This document shows, piece after piece, positions 12,434 through 25,696 of a DNA stretch of 33,917 nucleotides. Source of the stretch: Aquificaceae bacterium. Its GTDB lineage: Bacteria > Pseudomonadota > Gammaproteobacteria > Thiotrichales > Thiotrichaceae. Within the stretch, counting starts at the first letter, position 1. Each line of letters starts with the position of its first letter. The position numbers and the translations under genes are program-made. The notes beneath the pieces were generated by a model. That model did not search any database. It saw only the letters and a program-made list of their open reading frames with translations, and had not been told where the DNA came from. The stretch covers positions 1 to 33,917 of the forward strand of contig QOAQ01000079.1 in NCBI GenBank assembly GCA_003972955.1, given 5' to 3'.

Positions 12434-12539
12434 GGTATCAATCTGTAGAATTATTATTCTATTACTCACTCTCTTTCAACAAGTTCCCTGAGTTTGTCGA
12501 AGGGGCGATGATAAAGCACAAAGTCATAAGATTGATACT
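12434..12539 (+). repeat. Palindromic repeat family R4, copy A
   Basis: GTATCAATCT at 12435-12444 and AGATTGATAC at 12529-12538 form a perfect 10-bp terminal inverted repeat around about 85 bases. The core contains CCCTGAGTTTGTCGAAGGGG and the tail reads AAAGCACAAAGTCATAAGATTG. It shares end, core and tail with copies at 19771-19858 (inverted) and 25600-25696 (same orientation). It is non-coding and probably a non-autonomous mobile element. Confidence 0.75.
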
Positions 12540-12544
12540 AATAT

Positions 12545-12561
12545 CTGAATCTATGAGGTTA
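12545..12561 (+). repeat. Solitary terminus of repeat family R7
   Basis: CTGAATCTATGAGGTTA differs at one base from the 17-base inner part of the terminal inverted repeat of the element at 25016-25210. No matching right end is seen within the following 200 bases. It is probably what remains after deletion or after insertion of the adjoining R4 element. With only 17 bases matched, chance cannot be fully excluded. Confidence 0.5.
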
Positions 12562-19770: not shown

Positions 19771-19858
19771 GGTATCCATTTGTGATTTTGTGCCTCACTC
19801 ACCGTACCCTGAGCTTGTCGAAGGTTGTGGGTAATAGAACAAATCGCACACTAATACC
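19771..19858 (-). repeat. Palindromic repeat family R4, copy B (inverted)
   Basis: It begins GGTATCCATTTGTGATTTTGTG directly after the cysG stop codon and ends …CTAATACC. The reverse complement ends GGCACAAAATCACAAATGG and matches the tail of copies A and C. The core CCCTGAGCTTGTCGAAGG at 19807-19824 is shared by all three. Terminal repeats are more diverged than in copy A. It may act as the transcript end of cysG. Confidence 0.7.
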
Positions 19859-21267: not shown

Positions 21268-21942
21268 TTAAACCTCACTCCACATACGCAATAAGTTAGC
21301 ATAGCTTCGACTAATTCTAGCGGTTTCATCTGCTTGAGGCTTCTCTGCAATTAATTTATCCCTAGCAAGGGACAAATCATATAAAAGCTCGCGTTTTTCT
21401 GAGTTTTTCACCAAACTTTGCGCCCACGTAACCGCAACAATACGCTCACCTTTTGTGACCTCGCTAACCTTATGTAAACTTTTTGACGGATAAACCACTG
21501 CTGCACCCGCATCTAATTTAACGGTTTGCTCACCAAAGTCTGTTTTAATAACAAGCTCCCCGCCCTCATACTCATCTTTATTTGACAAAAAAACAGTCGT
21601 CGAAATATCGGAACGATAACGTCCTGACATTGGCCCCATCACAGGGTCATCAACATGAAAGCCATAAGACATACCAGAAGTGTAACGGGCATAAAAAGCA
21701 GTGGCTAATTTAAGCGGTAAAGCAGCATTTTGATAGGTCGGATTCTGTACCAAAGCACCCATCACTATTTGGTTTAACTGCTGATGTAGTGGGCTTTGTT
21801 GTGATAGCTCCTCATTATTTTTAACCACTTTAGCTTCTTTACCTGCGGATAACTTACCATCAATAAAGTCAGCTTTTTTTAACATTTCTCTAACGACTTT
21901 TAAACGTTGTTGATCGAGCAAATTATCAATTGTTAATAACAT
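21268..21942 (-). CDS. PiuC/YbiX-type Fe(II)-dependent dioxygenase (PKHD hydroxylase)
   Basis: The 224-residue protein matches the PKHD-type hydroxylases YbiX/PiuC. Iron ligands lie in YGFHVDDPVMG (His96, Asp98) and KSLHKVSEV (His157), with Arg167 in GERIVAVTW for 2-oxoglutarate. The double-stranded beta-helix context DISTTVFLSNKDEYEGGELVI is complete, as is the usual C-terminal helical tail. Relatives often sit near iron-uptake receptor genes, but none is visible here. The substrate is unknown. It converges with the YheT-type gene and diverges from the 117-residue gene, so it is transcribed alone from the short region at 21943-22025. Confidence 0.88.
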   Translation of the reverse strand: MLLTIDNLLDQQRLKVVREMLKKADFIDGKLSAGKEAKVVKNNEELSQQSPLHQQLNQIVMGALVQNPTYQNAALPLKLATAFYARYTSGMSYGFHVDDPVMGPMSGRYRSDISTTVFLSNKDEYEGGELVIKTDFGEQTVKLDAGAAVVYPSKSLHKVSEVTKGERIVAVTWAQSLVKNSEKRELLYDLSLARDKLIAEKPQADETARISRSYANLLRMWSEV

Positions 21943-22025: not shown

Positions 22026-22379
22026 ATGGAACTCAAAGTTGTAGTTGATGGTCATTCTCATATCGTCAAATTTCCTGATGACATAATGACACAAGCCGCT
22101 GATTATTTTGACATGATGGATAACGATATGAATAAAGGTTATCAAATGAGTCAACAATGGGTCAGCAACCCCGATACCTTGCAACGCTGTCAAATAGCAG
22201 CCGATAAATTACTAACGGCATTAGAGACACAAAACGAGAAAACATCTCAACTGATGGCAGCCTATATTTTATCACGTATGCCGAATACTAAACTTGTCTC
22301 ATTAAGCCAAAGCGGTGACATGAGCACACATGATATTGACGATCAAAGTGATGGTGGTTTTGATATGAGCCTGTTTTAA
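22026..22379 (+). CDS. Hypothetical 117-residue acidic protein
   Basis: This is a small acidic cytosolic protein with no signal peptide, membrane segment or cysteine pair. The middle (about 55-100) is helical with leucine and alanine spacing (ADKLLTALETQNEKTSQLMAAYILSRMP). The tail is rich in Asp, Ser and Gly. A good ribosome site (GGAG, eight bases before ATG) supports it as a real gene. It is flanked by PiuC-type and 2OG-Fe(II) oxygenase genes on the opposite strand. I recognise no family. Confidence 0.6.
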   Translation: MELKVVVDGHSHIVKFPDDIMTQAADYFDMMDNDMNKGYQMSQQWVSNPDTLQRCQIAADKLLTALETQNEKTSQLMAAYILSRMPNTKLVSLSQSGDMSTHDIDDQSDGGFDMSLF

Positions 22380-22417: not shown

Positions 22418-22482
22418 GTCCGTGTATTCCGTGATTTAAAGATAATTTATAACCACGGAATACACTGAATACACGGAAGACT
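22418..22482. repeat. Inverted repeat R6 between convergent genes
   Basis: GTCCGTGTATTCCGTG near 22418-22433 is opposed by CCACGGAATACAC and then TGAATACACGGA up to about 22478, giving a hairpin with one alternative register. It is a short extragenic palindrome of a common type. It lies between the 117-residue gene and the end of the convergent 2OG oxygenase gene and could end transcription in both directions. No T-run is present, so terminator activity is uncertain. Confidence 0.65.
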
Positions 22483-22528: not shown

Positions 22529-23116
22529 TTACTCTCGAAACACTACCCAAGTCGTCGCAATATACTTTGCGCCTTCCCCCACTATTGCCGCACGGTGTTC
22601 ATGCGTCCAAAAAGGCGGGAATAACACCAAACTGCCTTTTTTCGGGGTGATTTTCACGTCTTGAAATAAAAACTCAGTCTCACCGCCCTTGCCTTCCATA
22701 TCATTCAAATACCACAAAGCAACCAACTGCCGTTGTGCTAAAGCAGGGCTATCTCCATCAACATGCCAGTGATAGTACTCCCCAGGCTGATAACGCTGTA
22801 GGTTATAACCTTTATCACCAAAACGTTCCATTTTAGAAAAATAAGGATAAGCCTCACCAAACTCGCGCAACGCCAAGCTTAAAGAACGAAATAAATTATT
22901 ATTCACATCCTGCCAATGCGGTTTACCTGTTACCACTAAATCGGTGGTTTTTTTCAAGCCCGTGTTTGACCCCATCTCAGAGCCTACACGCCCTTTATAT
23001 TGATCTGCTTCATTTGCTTCAAAACGAGCAATCATGTCATCACATAGAAAATCAGGCAGTGCATTTTTGTATTCAAATATAAAACTATTGGGTTTTACTT
23101 CTTTGATATTTTTCAT
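22529..23116 (-). CDS. 2-oxoglutarate/Fe(II) oxygenase, prolyl-4-hydroxylase-like
   Basis: The 195-residue protein has a prolyl-4-hydroxylase-like double-stranded beta-helix: NLQRYQPGEYYHWHVDGD with ligands His118 and Asp120, LVALWYLND and GGETEFLFQDVKITPKKGSLVLFPPFW, then distal His172 and Lys184 in AKYIATTWV for 2-oxoglutarate. The iron site is complete, so activity is expected. The substrate is unknown: it could be a protein side chain or a small molecule. Its ATG overlaps the stop codon of the preceding 353-residue gene by four bases, so the two are co-translated and probably work together. It is cytosolic, since no signal peptide is seen. Confidence 0.88.
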   Translation of the reverse strand: MKNIKEVKPNSFIFEYKNALPDFLCDDMIARFEANEADQYKGRVGSEMGSNTGLKKTTDLVVTGKPHWQDVNNNLFRSLSLALREFGEAYPYFSKMERFGDKGYNLQRYQPGEYYHWHVDGDSPALAQRQLVALWYLNDMEGKGGETEFLFQDVKITPKKGSLVLFPPFWTHEHRAAIVGEGAKYIATTWVVFRE

Positions 23117-24174
23117 AAAAAACTTTTCTCCACCAGATTCTCAATATCGTCTGTAGCATTTGCACCTTTTTCTATAAATATCTGCAAACATTGCTGTGCA
23201 AGTTGCTCCCAATGCTGGCGAGATGGCTCGATAATATCAGCAATGTGTTTTAGATCACCGCTTGCATACCATGCTTCATAGGCTTCCATGAGTTTGGGGG
23301 CTATTTTCTTACGCATCGCCATCATGCTTCCAAAGTAAAAATGGATCGATGCAGGGTTGTTTTTTGCAACTACTTGCTCCAAGGTTGTTAAAGCATCGGC
23401 TAAATGATCTCGAATAGCCCGCAGCATTATTTCTGCCGTTGAACGCGGTAAGGTATTCAACATTTCATTCCACTGCTCACCTAATCGCTTGCCTGCTAAT
23501 ACTTCACCTAGCTCATGTTCGATAATAAAAGAGGACTCTACTGCTGCCATTTTATCTAAGGCTATTTCGGTATCTCCTTCAAAATCATAGGCTTCAACGG
23601 CACGACCTAAGGGGCTATCAACAGGACTCATGCGCCACTCTTCCACCTTCTCCCACAACATACGACGCAATGACTCGTTACGAATAAAAATCAAACCATC
23701 TTGCATCATCGCAGGAGGCGCAGCCATATCACGAGCATATTCAGCTCCTGAGATAAAAATATCCACACCATCACGCTGATAATGATTTTCCAACTTGGCG
23801 ATAAAAAAGTGCGGACGACAACGAATACCTAAACCCGCGCTATAAATAAAACCTTGAGGATTCAATACCGCGTTAATCTTTTCATTATCAAAAGCATCGT
23901 AAGATATACCCTCAATTTCTACAGGCATATAATCCAGCTCTTCCAGATCATCCCACAACTCTTCGCGCGCGGTTAGCCAATCGCCCACATCATCAACACC
24001 GATCACCTCATTAAAACTAATGCCCTGCTCCCAACGGTACATCTCACGCATTTTCAGCAAGTATACACACAAGGTAAAATTACCTGCATGACGTGCATCA
24101 GCTATATCGCAGTTTTTTTGCACGGTTTTTATCACATTTTTCATGGTGTCAATCATTTCATTTTTAATCATCAT
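23113..24174 (-). CDS. Conserved protein of unknown function (Sfum_1244-like), co-translated with a 2OG oxygenase
   Basis: The 353-residue cytosolic protein resembles, from memory, the family named after Sfum_1244 of Syntrophobacter fumaroxidans, which is found in sulfur-metabolising bacteria. Landmarks are KNVIKTVQKNCDIADARHAGNFTLC near 12-36, MREMYRWEQGI near 42-52 and AGLGIRCRPHFFIAKLENH near 113-131. Most of the rest is helical. Two cysteines (24 and 36) lie near the N-terminus. Translation may begin at 24174 (MMIKNEM) or at Met11 (24144), which would give a family-like N-terminus. The overlap with the following oxygenase (ATGA) implies one functional unit, perhaps an enzyme with its substrate or scaffold. 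The function is unknown. Confidence 0.75.
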   Translation of the reverse strand: MMIKNEMIDTMKNVIKTVQKNCDIADARHAGNFTLCVYLLKMREMYRWEQGISFNEVIGVDDVGDWLTAREELWDDLEELDYMPVEIEGISYDAFDNEKINAVLNPQGFIYSAGLGIRCRPHFFIAKLENHYQRDGVDIFISGAEYARDMAAPPAMMQDGLIFIRNESLRRMLWEKVEEWRMSPVDSPLGRAVEAYDFEGDTEIALDKMAAVESSFIIEHELGEVLAGKRLGEQWNEMLNTLPRSTAEIMLRAIRDHLADALTTLEQVVAKNNPASIHFYFGSMMAMRKKIAPKLMEAYEAWYASGDLKHIADIIEPSRQHWEQLAQQCLQIFIEKGANATDDIENLVEKSFL

Positions 24175-24204
24175 GCGCTAATACTATCAAGCTTCACATA
24201 GATA

Positions 24205-24233
24205 TTCGCATTTCTTTATGAGACCTTTATAAT
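24205..24233 (+). promoter_or_regulatory. Candidate sigma70 promoter for the 226-residue gene
   Basis: TTCGCA at 24205-24210 (four of six -35 bases) is followed after 17 bases by a perfect TATAAT at 24228-24233. It would start transcription about 30 bases before the GTG start codon at 24272. Sequence match only. Confidence 0.5.
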
Positions 24234-24271
24234 CCGTTCATCTTTTCAAAGAATTTAGGGAGCATCACACT

Positions 24272-24952
24272 GTGCGTATACGGATTAAAACGAAATGGAG
24301 CAATAAAGAGCGTGAGGTCTCGGTTGAAGAGACGGTGAGTATTTTGGCGTTTAACTGCTGGAAAATCGGTATGCAAACCTTGTTAGAGATCGAGAATGAG
24401 AATTTTCAGATTGATACACATGGGCAACGTATTGAGATTATGGAGGAGATTGTTGCTTTCTTAATTCATGCTTTAGATCGTATGGTGCATGACACGATTA
24501 ATGATGAAGACCGTGGTGCGCTTATTCAGCTTTATGCGCAAAAAATGGCAGATCATGTGCAAGACAATGCGCGTGATGTGCATGGTGCGGGAGATTATCG
24601 CACGCCTTTTTATGAGAAATTAAATCAACGTTTTGTGGGTTATGCTGATACAAAATGGGATAGCGAAAAAGATGAGCCTGGTTTTTCAATGGGGCGTGAG
24701 TTTGGCAATAATATTGCAGCGGTATTGGGTACACGTGATAAAAAATGGGTGTTAGATTATATTCAGCAGGTGTTGCTTCCTGAATTTTTTACGTTATATC
24801 GCAAAACCGTTAAATCGGTTGGCTTGATTGAAGATAAAATGGGCGAAGGCGCAACGCTTGATGGTCGTCACCACATGATTACCGACAAAGAAGAGAAACT
24901 AAAAAAGGTTAATATGCCTAAGTATGAGATTACCTCTAATGAAAAAGATTAA
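24272..24952 (+). CDS. Hypothetical 226-residue protein, divergent from the oxygenase operon
   Basis: This cytosolic, charged protein starts at GTG 24272 with AGGGAG ten bases upstream. The N-terminus is basic (MRIRIKTKWSNKEREVS); the centre is predicted helical (ETVSILAFNCWKIGMQTLLEI, then EEIVAFLIHALDRMVHD); the tail is basic. There is no signal peptide, metal motif or enzyme signature. A good -10 box lies in the 97-base divergent region shared with the 353-residue gene, so the two may be co-regulated. I do not recognise a family, though charge and length suggest a soluble partner protein. Confidence 0.65.
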   Translation: MRIRIKTKWSNKEREVSVEETVSILAFNCWKIGMQTLLEIENENFQIDTHGQRIEIMEEIVAFLIHALDRMVHDTINDEDRGALIQLYAQKMADHVQDNARDVHGAGDYRTPFYEKLNQRFVGYADTKWDSEKDEPGFSMGREFGNNIAAVLGTRDKKWVLDYIQQVLLPEFFTLYRKTVKSVGLIEDKMGEGATLDGRHHMITDKEEKLKKVNMPKYEITSNEKD

Positions 24953-24990: not shown

Positions 24991-25015
24991 TTTTATTCTA
25001 AACTTTTGACTCAAA

Positions 25016-25210
25016 CCTGAATCTGTGAGGTTAATGCGGATATGAGGAGCAAGATATTGGTTTCATAGTGGAATTAAAAAATATTAGCTTCACCCATAGG
25101 TTTAGTGAGCTGTTTACACTCAATTATCCCTGTGGATAAGCGGGTATTTTTTAAACCGCTGTGAAATCAATAGCTTGTTCCTCATGCCGTAGTAACCTCA
25201 CAGATTCAGG
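25016..25210. repeat. MITE-like element R7 with perfect 18-bp terminal inverted repeats
   Basis: CCTGAATCTGTGAGGTTA at 25016-25033 is matched exactly by TAACCTCACAGATTCAGG at 25193-25210. The arms keep pairing imperfectly inward (GAGGAGCAAGATATTGGTTTCA against TGAAATCAATAGCTTGTTCCTC), so the 195 bp is close to one palindrome. It is non-coding. It ends 26 bases before the cytochrome c start codon, with only the ribosome site in between. A lone end of the same family is at 12545-12561. Confidence 0.85.
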
Positions 25211-25236
25211 TAATATTAATTTATGGAGAAAAAAGC

Positions 25237-25599: not shown

Positions 25600-25696
25600 A
25601 GTATTAATTTGTGATTCTCTATTCGCCCCCTTCGACAGACTCCCTGAGCTTGTCGAAGGGGGTGGTGAGTTAAGCACAAAATCATAGATTGATACC
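25600..25696 (+). repeat. Palindromic repeat family R4, copy C
   Basis: It ends in ATTGATACC (25688-25696) and starts with the diverged GTATTAATTT. The core is a perfect 12-bp inverted repeat: CCCCCTTCGACA at 25626-25637 pairs with TGTCGAAGGGGG at 25651-25662. The tail AAGCACAAAATCATAGATTG matches copy A. It lies between the cytochrome c gene and moaD and could end the former's transcript. Confidence 0.75.

Follow-up and report, generated by a model that had tools for sequence, protein, structure and literature searches.

A conserved companion gene set of the reverse-Dsr sulfur oxidation genes in Gammaproteobacteria

Gene layout in the window

The window analysed was the contig QOAQ01000079.1 (33,917 nt), in which a three-gene set occupies positions 22529-24952. 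The 226-aa protein p226 is encoded on the plus strand (24272..24952), its GTG start being supported by the N-terminus RIRIKTKW, which is conserved in relatives. The minus strand carries the genes of a 353-aa protein of the DUF6866 / Sfum_1244 type (23113..24174) and of a 195-aa, prolyl-4-hydroxylase-like 2OG-Fe(II) oxygenase, here termed OG2 (22529..23116). As reported in a first-pass annotation made from the letters of the sequence, the latter two genes are joined by a four-base overlap of the DUF6866 stop and the OG2 start (ATGA, minus strand, 23116..23113), and the p226 gene diverges from them across a short region, with 97 bp between the two starts (24175..24271). The ATGA overlap is confined to part of the family, including the genus of the window; elsewhere a gap or an intervening gene is found. 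A single promoter-like match was placed inside the 97-bp region (24205-24233, plus strand), by a scan that gave 7 matches against 8.7 expected in shuffled sequence and hence no excess over background.

Next to OG2, the gene of a 117-aa uncharacterised protein (p117; 22026..22379, plus strand) is followed by that of a PKHD-type (PiuC/YbiX-like) Fe(II)/2OG hydroxylase (21268..21942, minus strand; NF003974 at E 5e-77, and PKHD_C). The 3' ends of OG2 and p117 converge on an inverted repeat (22419..22468; 18-nt arms, 89% complementary) that possibly functions as a two-way terminator. A search of the window for structured RNA gave no match at gathering thresholds.

The 2OG-Fe(II) oxygenase OG2

OG2 was assigned to PF13640 (E 3e-15; 57.3 bits versus a threshold of 27). 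Residues H118, D120, H174 and K184, corresponding to the HxD...H iron ligands and the basic 2OG residue, were invariant in 62/62 relatives, so that OG2 should be active and is predicted to be catalytically competent. The nearest solved structures were bacterial and viral prolyl 4-hydroxylases (5c5t, 3itq, 5hv0; E 6e-9 to 3e-8 versus the OG2 family profile), which have the HxD...H iron triad and the 2OG lysine in common with OG2; the match is, however, limited to the catalytic core, and OG2 forms a distinct clade linked to the reverse-Dsr (rDsr) genes. At the level of sequence, the description of this gene as an intact prolyl-hydroxylase-like enzyme was thereby confirmed. In a sample of 199 genomes, OG2 orthologs were present in 44, all of which also carried p226 and 6 of which lacked DUF6866; OG2 is therefore tied to the rDsr setting and not to DUF6866 alone.

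The DUF6866 protein

The 353-aa protein consists of the N- and C-terminal domains of DUF6866 (Pfam PF21739 and PF21740; E 2e-63 and 1e-65) and matches the NCBIfam model NF045620, 'Sfum_1244 family', with E 2e-136 (454.8 bits versus a cut-off of 150). The match extends over the full length and lies far above the cut-offs. The family, named for sulfate reducers (Desulfobacterota), is on record without function or structure. The protein had been listed as a 353-residue unknown, which holds in that no function is recorded, but it is no orphan and belongs to this named family.

The AlphaFold model of DUF6866 (pLDDT 93.6) gave nothing below E 0.001 when compared with the PDB by Foldseek alone. With a second structural aligner, dipeptidyl peptidase III (DPP III; 5zum, Z 10.8 over 274 residues) and PolE (9j3g, Z 10.2 over 262 residues) were retrieved; these two proteins filled all of the top 11 rows, and the next unrelated protein scored 5.6. 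On the predicted model, DUF6866 would thus have the DPP III/PolE fold, the matches being weak to moderate. PolE and DPP III have structure in common, and PolE, an amino-acid desaturase, carries the motif H(E/D)xxH-x(21-23)-E (PMC12614342). The predicted fold of DUF6866 resembles that of PolE / DUF6421, an Fe(II)-pterin oxidase, over nearly the whole chain.

A putative metal motif of DUF6866, HExGE-x23-E, is encoded at 23431..23517 (minus strand). H220, E221, G223 and E224 (HExGE) were invariant in 73/73 relatives, and E248, 23 residues after HExGE, was found in 70/73; this conservation makes metal binding likely. In PolE, too, an HE motif is followed by a Glu, and the spacing to E248 fits the PolE range. 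Membership in PolE / DUF6421 was nevertheless rejected on the motif, the second His of PolE being Glu224 in DUF6866. DUF6866 was likewise rejected as a dipeptidyl peptidase III (M49), the HExxGH zinc motif being absent and HExGE present in 73/73 relatives. No sequence-level similarity of DUF6866 to PolE or DPP III was detected, and a search of PDB sequences with the DUF6866 profile returned chance matches only.

The p226 protein

As the first-pass annotation had it, the 226-aa product is without a known family, no match being obtained in Pfam, NCBIfam or PHROGs. Its AlphaFold model is all-helical (pLDDT 81.5); Foldseek alone gave nothing below E 0.001 versus the PDB, and the p226 profile gave chance matches only versus PDB sequences. 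The best structural row was the Cbp3/UQCC1 chaperone (6rwt, PF03981; Z 8.8, rmsd 4.9, 160 residues), a score that lies within the range of unrelated helical proteins (next row 6.6). A relation to Cbp3 that is detectable in sequence was rejected by the tests: there was no Pfam hit, the hhalign probability was below 1%, the profile alignment reached z 0.8 with a higher value for the reversed control, and a DT...R motif apparently in common vanished after cleaning of the Cbp3 alignment (D48 and T49 in 54/114 each). Only the description of p226 as helical and possibly chaperone-like, taken from the model, was therefore kept.

Co-occurrence with dsrA

The reverse dissimilatory sulfite reductase (rDsr) pathway is a main bacterial route from stored sulfur to sulfite, and its maturation, sulfur carrier and regulation are only partly known. 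A class-level sample of 369 gammaproteobacterial genomes was used, comprising 118 with and 251 without dsrA, in which p226 was found in 116 genomes, spread across more than 50 families (manual count), and DUF6866 in 81. p226 was present in 107/118 dsrA-positive versus 9/251 dsrA-negative genomes, leaving 11 genomes with dsrA alone and 242 that lack both genes (Fisher P 3.5e-68), and the counts for DUF6866 were 72 with both, 9 with DUF6866 only, 46 with dsrA but without DUF6866, and 242 with neither (Fisher P 1.2e-34); both Fisher values treat species as independent, and kinship within families means that independence is overstated. All DUF6866-positive genomes (81/81) were also p226-positive.

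The exceptions were inspected individually. Seven of the 11 genomes with dsrA and without p226 were below 90% complete. Two of those with p226 only (G090, G292) carry dsrB fragments, in another (G149) the contig ends right after a TauD-like gene, where dsrA starts in other genomes, and several of the remaining ones are incomplete assemblies. In the window's own assembly, which counts among the nine and is 70% complete, neither dsrA nor dsrB was detected; its genus-mates carry dsrA or dsrB. Outside the Gammaproteobacteria, DUF6866 was found in 0/44 dsrA-positive genomes, and p226 was absent from every genome of the phylum sample besides the window's own; neither protein is therefore needed for rDsr generally.

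The conserved neighbourhood upstream of dsr

p226 and DUF6866 were adjoining and divergent in 77/81 DUF6866-positive genomes, far more often than chance would allow; the gap between them had a median of 176 bp. The question raised by the first-pass annotation, whether the genes stay together, is thus answered with yes, across many families. The trio is found again in relatives from the Thiotrichaceae, where it is flanked differently, and therefore represents a unit, not a common background. OG2 was present at 54/79 DUF6866 loci and lay within 1 kb of DUF6866 at 45/79, always on the same strand. Relatives of p117 were found at 36/79 DUF6866 loci and 9/38 p226-only loci, and those of the PKHD hydroxylase at 47/79 DUF6866 loci.

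Among the 72 genomes that carry DUF6866 as well as dsrA, the two were no more than 30 kb apart in 37, of which 34 had DUF6866 upstream and on the same strand, usually at 3-15 kb. For p226 the same distance applied in 49 genomes, in 41 of them upstream and divergent. The gene order was read from 20-kb stretches and then from family models over all loci; dsrA and dsrB were assigned by search, and the other dsr names from order and sequence. Taking the direction of dsrA as forward, the recurrent order is p226 (reverse), DUF6866, OG2 and in some cases a GNAT gene (all forward), p117 (reverse), PKHD (forward), and then a DsrC paralog, a Cas6-like gene, in some cases the gene of a 238-aa protein, and a TauD-like gene (all reverse), followed by dsrA, dsrB, dsrE, dsrF, dsrH, dsrC, dsrM, dsrK and dsrL (all forward). 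Streamlined genomes of about 1 Mb retain p226 and OG2 beside dsr.

The window carries the first five genes of this island (226, 353, 195 and 117 aa, and the PKHD hydroxylase) without dsr. In its genus the block is located away from dsr, and in two genomes of its family some 20 kb, into which signalling genes have been inserted, separate the block from dsrA; the window is therefore seen as a displaced piece of the dsr-upstream island. The three genes of the first-pass annotation were confirmed in position and length; it had missed both the link to rDsr and the membership of p117 and the PKHD hydroxylase in the same block. The presence of p226 and DUF6866 tracks dsrA even where they are unlinked to dsr, as in the window genus and the Thiotrichaceae relatives.

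Further genes of the island were recorded. A protein of the Cas6/Cmx6 family is encoded upstream of dsrA (L059-L078; PF09559 at E 1e-57, TIGR02807 above cut-off). No other cas gene was seen alongside, and in this setting the CRISPR name of the protein probably misleads. In most linked genomes a DsrC-family paralog (L060:11755-12093 and relatives) lies between the block and dsrA; it is without the C-terminal cysteines of DsrC and terminates in AGLPQSTRKGGY. Directly upstream of dsrA and divergent from it, most linked genomes have a TauD/gamma-butyrobetaine-dioxygenase-like enzyme (L071:7168-8112 and relatives), the third 2OG oxygenase of the island. At two loci (L163 and L147, genomes G037 and G287) p226 stands beside the Cas6-like gene and dsrA without DUF6866, OG2 and PKHD, which suggests that p226 and the Cas6-like gene are the most ancient companions of dsr or the most basic ones.

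Relation to the described rDsr cluster

The rDsr cluster of sulfur-oxidising bacteria was described as dsrABEFHCMKLJOPNRS in Allochromatium vinosum (PMC3368242). As named, it begins at dsrA, and p226, DUF6866 and OG2 are not among its named genes in the literature searched; the block described here is found immediately upstream of dsrA in many genomes, and its occurrence follows that of dsrA. DsrS is the last gene of the A. vinosum cluster, whereas DUF6866 was upstream of dsrA in 34/37 linked genomes, and at the locus L223 no DUF6866 was present among the genes downstream of dsrL; gene position, the sole comparison made, thus argues against an identity of DUF6866 with DsrS.

A literature search for DUF6866/Sfum_1244 found no mention, and the dsr gene surveys in the literature searched leave p226, DUF6866 and OG2 unmentioned; subscription papers on A. 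vinosum lay largely outside this literature, so that an earlier mention is possible. As far as the literature searched shows, the link between DUF6866 and rDsr is new and provides a first functional context for this family, and the gene set is probably a new accessory part of the known rDsr system.

Proposed role of the gene set

An association of the gene set with rDsr can be stated with high confidence. Being conserved alongside the reverse-Dsr genes, the three genes probably represent undescribed helper parts of sulfur oxidation, and a functional accessory module of rDsr in Gammaproteobacteria is the interpretation that we consider likely. p226, which follows dsrA almost one for one in this class, would be the near-constant part, and DUF6866 and OG2 frequent additions; together with OG2 and DUF6866, it is a concrete candidate for a missing part of the pathway.

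As for the task of such a module, we tentatively favour a maturation or regulation of the Dsr proteins that depends on O2. With O2 and 2-oxoglutarate as cosubstrates, OG2 would hydroxylate one of the proteins or cofactors of the Dsr machinery; DUF6866, as a metalloenzyme with the DPP III/PolE fold, would act in the same process, and p226 may serve as a helical chaperone or adaptor. An oxygen-dependent step may accordingly be built into the rDsr sulfur pathway. A more demanding proposal, which we regard as rather doubtful, is that gammaproteobacterial rDsr needs undescribed O2- and iron-dependent enzymes (OG2, DUF6866, often PKHD and the TauD-like enzyme) with p226 as their dedicated partner, a set that would serve to mature the Dsr machinery or to produce the sulfur carrier.

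Alternatively, OG2, PKHD and the TauD-like enzyme, along with DUF6866 if it is PolE-like, could build or modify a low-molecular-weight compound, e.g. a hypothetical organic perthiol carrier. Such a pathway would agree with the presence of up to three 2OG-Fe(II) oxygenases, a protein of PolE-like fold and sometimes a GNAT acetyltransferase in one island, with the amino-acid desaturation by PolE (PMC12614342) and with the perthiolic carrier to the Dsr system postulated for A. vinosum (PMC3368242). It appears rather unlikely, however, as the block is without a ligase, synthetase or other scaffold-building enzyme, its members are lost independently of one another, and p226, its most constant member, is without an enzyme-like signature.

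Also considered unlikely is a regulatory module in which OG2 and DUF6866 would respond to O2, iron or redox state and so adjust how much Dsr protein is made or how active it is, and in which the Cas6-like gene and the DsrC paralog would act at the level of RNA or transcription. 2OG oxygenases act as O2 sensors in other systems, and the stretch that separates the block from dsrA encodes a DsrC paralog and a Cas6/Cmx6-like protein next to which no further cas gene was seen; the searches of the three proteins in Pfam, NCBIfam and PHROG, on the other hand, gave no DNA-binding domain. Passive hitch-hiking of genes that have an unrelated role and merely lie in the same conserved chromosomal region as dsr would fit the generic appearance of other genes of the region (MoxR/VWA/Sel1), but is made very unlikely by the tracking of dsrA without linkage and by the retention of p226 and OG2 in streamlined genomes.

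The first-pass annotation had proposed a protein-modification or small-molecule oxidation system with the 353-residue protein as substrate or scaffold; the oxidation or modification part is reasonable, and the part on a substrate or scaffold for the oxygenase is not supported. Hydroxylation of DUF6866 by OG2 is the least probable of the readings considered, as the ATGA overlap in the window genus and the close, same-strand arrangement at 45/79 loci are set against OG2 beside p226 without DUF6866 at six loci (G062, G105, G164, G277, G309 and G372; divergent, gaps of 51-217 bp; genomes of about 1 Mb each except for G105), against DUF6866 without OG2 at at least 17 loci having at least 2.9 kb of sequence downstream, and against the predicted enzyme-like fold and invariant metal-type motif of DUF6866 itself; as an obligate relation it is refuted, each protein being found without the other.

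Repeat elements in the window

A MITE-like element of about 197 bp (25015-25211), with 25-nt terminal inverted repeats that are 92% complementary, lies directly 3' of the p226 gene, and a repeat end related to it was found at 12543-12561. Repeats of the CCCTGAGCTTGTCGAAGG type are interspersed in intergenic DNA at 12475-12505, 19807-19830 and 25631-25665.
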